From positions 1-44,806 of the forward strand of contig JAAYJT010000057.1 in the NCBI GenBank assembly GCA_012522795.1: 44,806 bases of DNA. Direction: 5' to 3'. Shown one piece after another: positions 18,650-21,044 of the stretch (positions are counted from its first letter, which is position 1; the number at the start of each line of letters is the position of its first letter). The notes below the pieces were generated by a model. It was not told the origin of the DNA. It ran no database searches and worked only from the letters and a program-made list of their open reading frames with translations. The DNA comes from Bacteroidales bacterium (GTDB lineage Bacteria; Bacteroidota; Bacteroidia; Bacteroidales; JAAYJT01). The position numbers were made by a program, and so were the translations under genes.

Positions 18650-19726
18650 TCAATACTCAATCAATTCGGCTTTCCCGCTAAGAATAAGCATTCCGTTTGC
18701 TGCCAGAGAATCAAGATCGTTGACCACCGGATAAACCGATATTGGTGCAATATGACTAATCCGACGAGTAATTTCGTCAGTGAATTTCTTGTTATTCAGA
18801 ATATTTCCTGTAAGCAAAGTTGCATCAACCTGTCCTTCAAGCACTGACGACATTGCACCAATTTCCTTTGAAATCTGATATGCCATAGCATTAACATAAA
18901 ACCATGCTTTTTCATCATTTGCTGCCAGCAACATTTCAATTTCTGTAAGGCTCGAAGTTCCAAGATAGGCTGATAATCCTCCTTCGTCAGTGATCATTTT
19001 ACGAATATGTTCTTTGGTATATTTTCCGCTATAACACAATTCAATTAATTCACCAACTGGTAGTGAACCGGAACGCATAACAGCAAAAGGACCATCACCA
19101 TCAAAAGCCTGATTAACATCCACAACTCTACCTTTCAAATGAGCACCTATTGATACTCCACCACCTCCGATATGTGCAACGATCAAATTAAGGCTTTCGT
19201 AAGGTTTATTAACCGATTTGGCAAATTTGCGAGCTACATATTTATGATTCAGACAGTGAAAAACTGATTTTCGATCAATAAGCGGATGTCCGCTTACCCG
19301 TGCCATATCGCTTAGTTCATCAACCACCACAGGATCACCAAGATAGGCTTTTGCATCAGGAAGACGTCTGGCAATTTCATCAGCAATAAGCCCTCCCAGA
19401 TTTGTAGCATGACGACCTAAAATCCCTATTCTGAGATCTTTTTTCATTTGCTCATTTACTTCGTAGATACCACTCTTTAATGGCCTGATCAAACCTCCGC
19501 GAGCCATAATCACATTAATATTTTCAAGATCCAATTCATTGTCTTTCAGTTCACTCATAATTGCATCAACACGAAATATGAGCTGATCAATTACATCTTT
19601 AAATCCTTCCAAAACATCCACTTTATGTCGTATGGTTTTTAAAAACGTTATCTCTTCGTTTTGATAAATGGCCATTTTAGTTTTGGTAACTTCGGGATAA
19701 ATAACAAGAATCTTTTTGTTAAGCAT
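18650..19726 (-). CDS. Butyrate kinase homologue with altered catalytic motifs
   Basis: Full-length (358 residues) member of the acetate/butyrate kinase family by overall sequence: ARGGLIRPL, HATNLGGLIADEIA, DPVVVDEL, HCLNHKYVARK, FDGDGPF and RSGSLPVGELIELC. The phosphate-binding segment, normally NPGSTSTK in butyrate kinases, reads YPEVTKTK (residues 10-17). The glycine loop has four Gly (HIGGGG, 185-190) where three are usual. LTGG becomes LTGN (305-308), and the C-terminal GGEDE segment reads PVVND (333-337). Activity is therefore doubtful. No phosphate butyryltransferase gene is adjacent. It may be a pseudo-enzyme or have a new substrate. Confidence 0.75.
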   Translation of the reverse strand: MLNKKILVIYPEVTKTKMAIYQNEEITFLKTIRHKVDVLEGFKDVIDQLIFRVDAIMSELKDNELDLENINVIMARGGLIRPLKSGIYEVNEQMKKDLRIGILGRHATNLGGLIADEIARRLPDAKAYLGDPVVVDELSDMARVSGHPLIDRKSVFHCLNHKYVARKFAKSVNKPYESLNLIVAHIGGGGVSIGAHLKGRVVDVNQAFDGDGPFAVMRSGSLPVGELIELCYSGKYTKEHIRKMITDEGGLSAYLGTSSLTEIEMLLAANDEKAWFYVNAMAYQISKEIGAMSSVLEGQVDATLLTGNILNNKKFTDEITRRISHIAPISVYPVVNDLDSLAANGMLILSGKAELIEY

Positions 19727-19924: not shown

Positions 19925-20509
19925 CTAATAATTTTCTTCACGTATTTGCATATAGGATTTCGGATGCAAACAAGCCGGACAAACTTCCAGAGCTTTTGCC
20001 GATTCGTAAACATAACCGCAATTCAAACATTTCCACCATACTTTGCCGTCTTTTACAAAAACTTTATCTTCTGAAATATTCTGTAACAACTTCAAATATC
20101 TACGCTCGTGTTCCATCTCTACTTTGGCAATCATTTTGAATGCAGTGGCAATTTCCTTAAATCCTTCCTCATTGGCAATTTCAGCAAATTTTGGATAGAG
20201 CACTGTGTATTCTTCATTTTCGCCTTCGGCAGCAGCTTTTAAATTTTCCAAAGTATTGCCAATCCTGCCTGCTGGATATGTTGCTGTTATCTCAACACAA
20301 CCACCTTCTTCCAGGAATTTAAAGAATCGTTTGGCATGTTCTTTTTCTTGGCTCGCAGTTTCCATAAAAATAGCTGCAATCTGCTCATAGCCTTCTTTTT
20401 TTTTTGCCACACTTGCAAAAAATTCATAACGATTGCGTGCCTGCGATTCGCCAGCAAATGATTTTAATAGGTTTTGTTCAGTTTGTGTTCCTTTTAATGA
20501 TTTCGTCAT
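19925..20509 (-). CDS. rbr: Rubrerythrin
   Basis: A cytoplasmic non-haem diiron peroxidase that detoxifies hydrogen peroxide in anaerobes. Of 194 residues, the N-terminal four-helix ferritin-like domain (about 1-145) has the diiron ligands in FAGESQARNRYEFF, SQEKEHAKRFF, IANEEGF and VEMEHERRYL. The C-terminal rubredoxin-like domain (about 155-194) has both knuckles, CLNCGYVYE and VCPACLHPKSY. It lies 19 nt after the flavin reductase/half-rubredoxin gene, a likely electron donor, so the two form an operon. Confidence 0.97.
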   Translation of the reverse strand: MTKSLKGTQTEQNLLKSFAGESQARNRYEFFASVAKKKEGYEQIAAIFMETASQEKEHAKRFFKFLEEGGCVEITATYPAGRIGNTLENLKAAAEGENEEYTVLYPKFAEIANEEGFKEIATAFKMIAKVEMEHERRYLKLLQNISEDKVFVKDGKVWWKCLNCGYVYESAKALEVCPACLHPKSYMQIREENY

Positions 20510-20528
20510 AATTTTTTAAATTTATTGG

Positions 20529-21044
20529 TTAAATTTCAATAAAATCTTCTTTTTCTGCCCCACACATCGGACATGTCCAGTCTTCAGGCAAATCAGAGAG
20601 TTTTACATCTTCTTTTTCGTCATCAATTATTTCTGCCTGAATTAATTCGCCAATGAATATCATATGAGTTCCGACATCAAACTTCTGAACCACTTCGCAT
20701 TCAATAAAAGCTATGCTGTCGTTCATAATTATGGGAACCCCGGTTTCACAATATTTCAGGGTTATCCCCTCAAGTTTATTAAAGTCTCTTCCGCTTTTAT
20801 TACCAAAACGACCAAATATTTCAGAATCGGTATTCTGATGTAAAGCTGATACATCAAAACTGCCATATTTCTCAATAAATTCACAGGTGTAATTATTTTT
20901 ATTCACACATGCTGCAAATTGAGCTGGCTCGGCTGTTACTTGAAATATGGTGTTGGATATAAACCCGTTTCTCCGTTTATCATCTCCTGAACTTATAATG
21001 TGAAGACCGTAAGAAGTTTTGAATAAAGTGTTAAAATCAATCAC
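20529..21044 (-). CDS. Flavin reductase domain protein with a one-knuckle rubredoxin tail
   Basis: Residues 1-140 form a flavin-reductase-like (split-barrel FMN-binding) domain, as in high-molecular-weight rubredoxin (Hrb). The last 23 residues match only the second half of a rubredoxin: DLPEDWTCPMCGAEKEDF. The first CxxCG knuckle and the intervening ~30 residues are absent, so only two of the four iron-binding cysteines remain. The start is GTG at 21044. It is 19 nt upstream of rubrerythrin and presumably feeds it electrons. The tail may have lost iron binding, or may assemble a site between two subunits. Confidence 0.85.
   Translation of the reverse strand: MIDFNTLFKTSYGLHIISSGDDKRRNGFISNTIFQVTAEPAQFAACVNKNNYTCEFIEKYGSFDVSALHQNTDSEIFGRFGNKSGRDFNKLEGITLKYCETGVPIIMNDSIAFIECEVVQKFDVGTHMIFIGELIQAEIIDDEKEDVKLSDLPEDWTCPMCGAEKEDFIEI

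Follow-up and report, generated by a model that had tools for sequence, protein, structure and literature searches.

Does a gene that scores as a butyrate kinase still encode one once the motifs of its nucleotide site have been rewritten? The question is raised by a single gene in a 44,806-nucleotide contig of a Bacteroidales bacterium (JAAYJT010000057.1, here called the window) and by its relatives, which together we call BukX. A preliminary description of this DNA had reported a full-length butyrate kinase homologue with altered catalytic motifs and had proposed that selection favours a new substrate or a role other than that of a kinase. By sequence family and fold BukX belongs with butyrate kinase (Buk) but, to judge from its residues, it is probably not a butyrate kinase. 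The main clue to its function, absent from the preliminary description, is linkage to icmF, the gene for a fused B12-dependent isobutyryl-CoA mutase.

A butyrate kinase paralogue in a genome with a canonical ptb-buk pair

The window gene runs from 19726 to 18650 on the minus strand as a single intact frame with an ATG start and a product of 358 amino acids. Its assignment as BukX, a butyrate-kinase-like paralogue with rewritten nucleotide-site motifs (18650..19726), draws on a profile match, a comparison of residue classes and a tree. Against TIGR02707, the NCBIfam equivalog for butyrate kinase, the product scores 431.5 bits over residues 5-353, where the cut-off is 289.1 bits, and other BukX copies likewise score above this cut-off.

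A search of the same genome returned one other Buk, which is 50% identical to the window copy, carries NPGSTSTK, ITGG and PGEDE, and is encoded directly downstream of ptb (phosphate butyryltransferase) on contig C46; this is the second, canonical buk next to ptb that the preliminary description had suggested looking for. Since a canonical Buk is encoded elsewhere in the genome, which also has an ordinary acetate kinase, the window gene is a paralogue. The ptb-buk pair sits on C46 and, as had been stated, there is no ptb beside the window gene. Among the collected loci, ptb never lies within 400 bp of BukX on the same strand, and 48 of the 61 canonical buk genes come after ptb. A canonical buk is also carried by nearly all BukX genomes, with two incomplete genomes (G052 and G187) showing one match only.

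Upstream of the window gene, on the same strand, lie genes for a rubrerythrin and a flavin reductase-rubredoxin fusion (19925-21044). This neighbourhood is not common to same-genus relatives, which fits a relocation of BukX.

The rewritten motifs are conserved across many Bacteroidales genomes

Buk-family proteins were collected from 295 genomes of the order, from GTDB contigs (with titles that are mostly Bacteroidales or Bacteroidetes MAGs) and from follow-up loci. Together these yielded 163 distinct proteins, of which 61 are canonical, 81 are YP-type, like the window copy, and 21 are intermediate. Canonical copies are invariant (61/61) at N10, G12, S13, T14, K17, G307, G333, E334 and E336. 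The window copy departs from this pattern at four places, all of which the preliminary description had correctly read from the sequence.

At PHOSPHATE1 (residues 10-17; 19676..19699, minus strand, as for all features below) the window copy reads YPEVTKTK in place of the canonical NPGSTSTK, so that the pattern N-x-G-S-x-S-x-K is lost and only the P, two T and the K survive. The replacements are themselves conserved in class frequencies, YP-type copies having Y10 in 80/81 and E12 in 69/81, with K or R at position 17 in most. At PHOSPHATE2 (residues 185-190; 19157..19174) the alignment places HIGGGG against a canonical HLGGG that is one residue shorter, and the same one-residue insertion is found in the glycine loop of YP-type copies. 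At ADENOSINE (residues 305-308; 18803..18814) the canonical LTGG is LTGN, that is, TGN instead of T-G-G, and the equivalent of Gly331 of acetate kinase is gone; G is present here in 61/61 canonical copies, whereas N, S, Q or M are commonest in the YP-type.

The C-terminal acidic motif (residues 333-337; 18716..18730) is PVVND, with N336 in 74/81 and D337 in 78/81 YP-type copies, as against E336 in 61/61 canonical ones. The preliminary description was right about PVVND but had given the consensus as GGEDE; it is (Y)PGEDE in the canonical copy of the window genome and, with few exceptions, throughout the 61 canonical Bacteroidales copies. In the region of Glu384 of acetate kinase, window residues N336-D337 stand against canonical D335-E336 in an alignment that is ambiguous by one position, and the change to PVVND is, as read from this alignment, milder than it first looked, since the acid in the last position becomes Asp.

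The acid side of the site is retained. The window copy has equivalents of all three acetate kinase residues Arg91, His180 and Arg241 (Methanosarcina thermophila numbering), namely Arg76 (19499..19501; R in 78/81 YP-type and 61/61 canonical copies), His157 (19256..19258; 81/81 and 61/61) and Arg218 (19073..19075; 80/81 and 61/61). His185 is present too, so that the substrate-binding residues which the preliminary description had listed as kept are indeed in place, as is Lys17, the counterpart of Lys14 of Methanosarcina acetate kinase. Position 131 is Asp in 62/81 and Asn in 19/81 YP-type copies.

As the same replacements recur in 81 distinct sequences of the YP-type, spread over many Bacteroidales genomes, the pattern in the window is not a matter of chance, and the preliminary question of whether the YPEVTKTK form is conserved in a clade is answered in the affirmative. 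The YPE form is absent from the canonical Bacteroidales copies, from those of Bacteroidota beyond the order and from the Buk crystal structures. Outside the BukX clade, the 61 Bacteroidales and six other Bacteroidota copies have NPGS, LTGG and GEDE or nearly so, and a search of Bacteroidota outside the order gave canonical Buk alone above E 1e-100.

BukX is one clade with graded motif loss and purifying selection

In a FastTree phylogeny all non-canonical copies except one (L237) form a single clade (support 0.97). An IQ-TREE analysis of 66 sequences again recovered BukX as one group, with strong support for a core of YP, NPKNTST and LKPE forms and weaker support at the BukX base; rerooting may have shifted the support labels by one node. 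The window copy groups with those of two same-genus relatives (L117 and L118) inside the YP-type clade. A definition of BukX as exclusively YP-type was rejected, because intermediate and LKPE forms fall in the same clade.

Members that branch near the base retain more of the ancestral motifs: VNPRSLFTK with LTGG and GGDE in L220, VNPKDKFTQ with LTGE in L221, LKPExxxTK with LTGM in L190-L192, and NPKNTSTK or NPKNTSSK with LSGD in L020 and L083. Since these early-branching members retain part of the motifs, the loss was graded and members may differ from one another.

Two further observations concern atypical loci. Four BukX genes with NPKNTSSK (L083, L089, L093 and L099) are flanked by a gene for a GAF-domain protein (~160 aa) and a CNNM/CorC-type transporter gene, not by icmF. 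The exception in the tree, L237 (contig C31 of G027), is a separate degenerate buk with LKTVSKTTK, near icmF on the opposite strand; it lies outside the BukX clade, is sister to a canonical copy from that same stretch and looks like a second case of independent origin, and it was left out of the BukX set.

Pairwise dN/dS is 0.013-0.099 among BukX copies versus 0.014-0.072 among canonical ones. Between the window copy and that of the same-genus genome G048, differences at first, second and third codon positions number 53/26/203, such that third positions are saturated and second positions have hardly changed. Read from the coding sequences, the altered form is maintained and is not decaying. 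A pseudogene or assembly error is ruled out by intact frames, purifying selection and the recurrence of the motif in independent genomes. A recent tandem duplication at the locus was also rejected, as the canonical copies in three loci with both genes (L192, L220 and L221) group apart from their BukX neighbours.

A predicted butyrate kinase fold with a remodelled ATP side

The AlphaFold model of the window BukX (pLDDT 92.6) has what is predicted to be a plain two-domain ASKHA butyrate kinase fold, superimposing on Thermotoga maritima Buk2 (PDB 1x9j) with Z 47.6 and an rmsd of 1.5 Å over 354 residues. The canonical copy of the window genome gives the same fold (Z 50.2, 1.4 Å, 355 residues). The structural alignment of BukX to Thermotoga Buk2 has 45% identity, and the sequence match is whole-length. 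Thermotoga Buk2 (PDB 1saz/1x9j) thus shares with BukX its whole-length homology, its fold and its carboxylate and transfer residues, whereas BukX differs from Buk in PHOSPHATE1, in PHOSPHATE2 length, in the ADENOSINE glycine and in the C-terminal acidic motif (PGSNEE in the Thermotoga protein), and stands beside icmF instead of ptb.

The likely consequences can be read from acetate kinase. In the Methanosarcina enzyme the PHOSPHATE1 residues Asn7, Ser10, Ser11, Ser12 and Lys14 are hallmarks important for activity, Gly331Gln brings specific activity down by a factor of more than 100, and substitutions at Asn211 and Gly239 lead to losses of 6- to 200-fold (PMC4390882). BukX is without the equivalents of Asn7, Ser10 and usually Ser12, and that of Gly331 is also gone, while the acid-side transfer residues are kept. 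The preliminary description had the N-terminal Asn and Ser contacting the phosphates directly, which goes too far: the structures of acetate kinase show the PHOSPHATE1 residues, important as they are for activity, beyond direct contact distance of ATP (PMC4390882). The loss of the PHOSPHATE1 and Gly331 equivalents, together with the longer PHOSPHATE2, would be expected to remove efficient ATP-dependent kinase activity, and we infer from these residues that BukX no longer carries out efficient ATP-dependent phosphorylation of butyrate.

Members of the ASKHA superfamily offer two precedents for other uses of such a fold. TsaB is a degenerate ASKHA paralogue that partners TsaD, and by functional analogy BukX may resemble it as an inactive-looking copy kept beside an active paralogue, here Buk. 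TsaBD complexes are among the fold matches to BukX (Z about 16); they belong to a different family and pathway, and a BukX-Buk complex is hypothetical. The ROK repressors Mlc and Lmo0178, with a fold match to BukX of Z about 15, use the ASKHA fold for regulation and not as kinases, but they carry DNA-binding domains, whereas BukX consists of the Buk domains only.

BukX is linked to the isobutyryl-CoA mutase gene icmF

The best PDB match of the icmF product is 4xc6. Phe and Gln at the two IcmF positions that determine isobutyryl-CoA specificity are present in 100/104 and 104/104 copies, respectively (copies not de-duplicated), matching the isobutyryl-CoA type. Of the 23 buk-icmF pairs that share a contig in the order sample, 21 place icmF upstream in the same orientation at up to 7 kb, most at less than 300 bp. 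Later searches added eight further cases with icmF upstream, and 29 sampled genomes have BukX downstream of icmF in this way, mostly within 400 bp. The first same-strand buk-family gene after icmF is always BukX, and in four loci (L115, L192, L220 and L221) the order is icmF-bukX-buk.

In the two same-genus relatives (G048 and G158; loci L117 and L118), BukX lies 1.4 and 4.6 kb downstream of icmF. One of these loci (L118:272-9273) has the order icmF, mutA (methylmalonyl-CoA mutase small subunit), mutB (large subunit), bukX on one strand, with three B12 mutase genes. The window genome (G000) has its icmF on another contig (C49), unlinked to BukX and 83% identical to that of G048; as its relatives keep the linkage, the link was probably broken recently in this genome.

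Co-occurrence follows the same pattern. Among the matches listed, 44 of the 295 genomes have BukX, though some BukX genomes may be missed; icmF is present in 40/44 of them versus 68/251 others (Fisher p 6e-16, with genomes that are not independent samples), and by family in 22/23 versus 33/97 (p 3e-8). Three of the 44 (G094, G100 and G200) were recognised from icmF flanks, and without them icmF is present in 37/41. No icmF was detectable in four BukX genomes (G058, G164, G177 and G256), three of which have the intermediate DPKNTST type, so that icmF is not strictly required.

Other genes recur around BukX. In 32 loci (L049, L050, L054, L066, L070, L095 and others) an ~800-aa gene with an apparent signal peptide lies directly downstream (e.g. 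L054:3968-6388), starting on the BukX stop codon or a few bases ahead of it, which suggests translational coupling. About ten other loci have an ~200-aa gene after BukX (among them L124:8083-8685, L127:10222-10827, L067:7090-7713 and L133:4473-5081), several in the order icmF-bukX-~200-aa gene. A Pfam search gave no match for either family. Downstream of icmF-bukX in L124 (8761-17000) are genes resembling an AMP-binding acyl-CoA ligase, an acyl-CoA dehydrogenase and an enoyl-CoA hydratase, a set that resembles a leucine/isovalerate degradation cluster.

What BukX may do

BukX forms a clade with conserved replacements, is under purifying selection, coexists with canonical Buk and is linked to icmF both physically and phylogenetically. 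The earlier proposal that selection favours either a role other than kinase or a different substrate finds good support in the conserved altered motifs, the clade they form, dN/dS of about 0.01-0.1 and the coexisting ptb-buk.

We give about an even chance to BukX being a non-ATP-kinase, acyl-ligand-binding paralogue at the isobutyryl-/butyryl-CoA node that acts as partner or regulator of Buk, IcmF or both. Such a protein would keep the ASKHA fold and the residues for the carboxylate and the transferring phosphoryl group (Arg76, His157, Arg218 and mostly Asp131), with its ATP side rebuilt in a new conserved form at PHOSPHATE1, the PHOSPHATE2 loop, the ADENOSINE glycine and the C-terminal acidic motif. 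Less certainly, its ligand may be a (branched) short-chain acid or an acyl phosphate of this node, and BukX could, with similar reserve, be a partner or sensor without catalysis of its own, either joining canonical Buk in a hetero-oligomer (compare TsaB-TsaD) or acting on IcmF; BukX would then match mutase flux to acyl-CoA/acid interconversion. More tentatively, and at somewhat less than even confidence, we suggest a dedicated role for BukX as non-kinase partner to the B12-dependent isobutyryl-CoA mutase system, with its butyrate kinase label in Bacteroidales genomes a misannotation: it would be an acid or acyl-phosphate sensor, or a hetero-oligomeric subunit, controlling IcmF or canonical Buk.

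The main rival, a serious one although we consider it unlikely, is that BukX is an active acyl kinase or acyl-phosphate consumer with another donor or acceptor (PPi/Pi) or another acid (isobutyrate, isovalerate or pivalate) supplied by IcmF. Lys17, Arg76, His157 and Arg218 remain, so that some phosphoryl chemistry is possible, and the icmF linkage, together with genes in some loci that look like parts of leucine or branched-chain acyl-CoA degradation (AMP-binding ligase and HMGL-like lyase), fits a branched-acid substrate. The precedent for a donor switch is the acetate kinase of Entamoeba histolytica, whose ADENOSINE glycine, like that of BukX, is naturally replaced (Gln at the position of Gly331) and which works with PPi/Pi in place of ATP (PMC4390882). 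Unlike BukX, however, this eukaryotic enzyme is reported to keep the PHOSPHATE1 hallmarks and is not mutase-linked, and the PHOSPHATE1 residues lost in BukX are conserved in prokaryotic and even in eukaryotic acetate kinases (PMC4390882). The PHOSPHATE2 insertion, the altered acidic motif and the missing same-strand ptb neighbour also speak against a kinase of this sort.

The tight same-strand linkage and the co-occurrence with icmF across many families, as well as the icmF-mutA-mutB-bukX order, all B12 mutase genes, in one same-genus relative, would also suit an accessory or reactivation factor for IcmF, an ASKHA-fold chaperone and fold analogue of diol-dehydratase reactivase. This we regard as improbable, given that IcmF has its own G-protein chaperone domain for loading and removing cobalamin (PMC10481361), that BukX has lost the nucleotide motifs needed by a reactivase ATPase, and that the three intermediate-type genomes and G177 have BukX without icmF.

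More doubtful still is an ordinary ATP-dependent butyrate kinase with tolerated motif changes: a score far above the equivalog cut-off and a retained Buk fold are what such an enzyme would have, but the 61 Bacteroidales and six other Bacteroidota copies outside the BukX clade all keep the canonical motifs or nearly so, L237 being the only other exception, the genome already has ptb-buk, and single changes at these sites carry the 6- to 200-fold costs measured in acetate kinase (PMC4390882). A decaying duplicate heading for loss, to which the gradual disappearance of ancestral motifs within the clade might point, is scarcely credible against intact frames in every member, dN/dS well under 1 and replacement residues that are conserved in their own right.

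Implications for butyrate metabolism in Bacteroidales

The family itself is not new, and curated models give its members the name butyrate kinase; in the open-access literature on butyrate and acetate kinase paralogues, pseudoenzymes and IcmF we found no description of an icmF-linked, motif-rewritten clade. Because curated models, including the NCBIfam equivalog, call BukX a butyrate kinase, predictions of butyrate or isobutyrate output and of energy yield in Bacteroidales count an enzyme that is probably not doing the reaction. The clade also provides a natural series, from a nearly intact to a fully replaced active site beside a B12 mutase, in which the conversion of a metabolic kinase to a different function is directly testable, and BukX is a candidate for a missing component of branched-chain acyl-CoA metabolism via IcmF.
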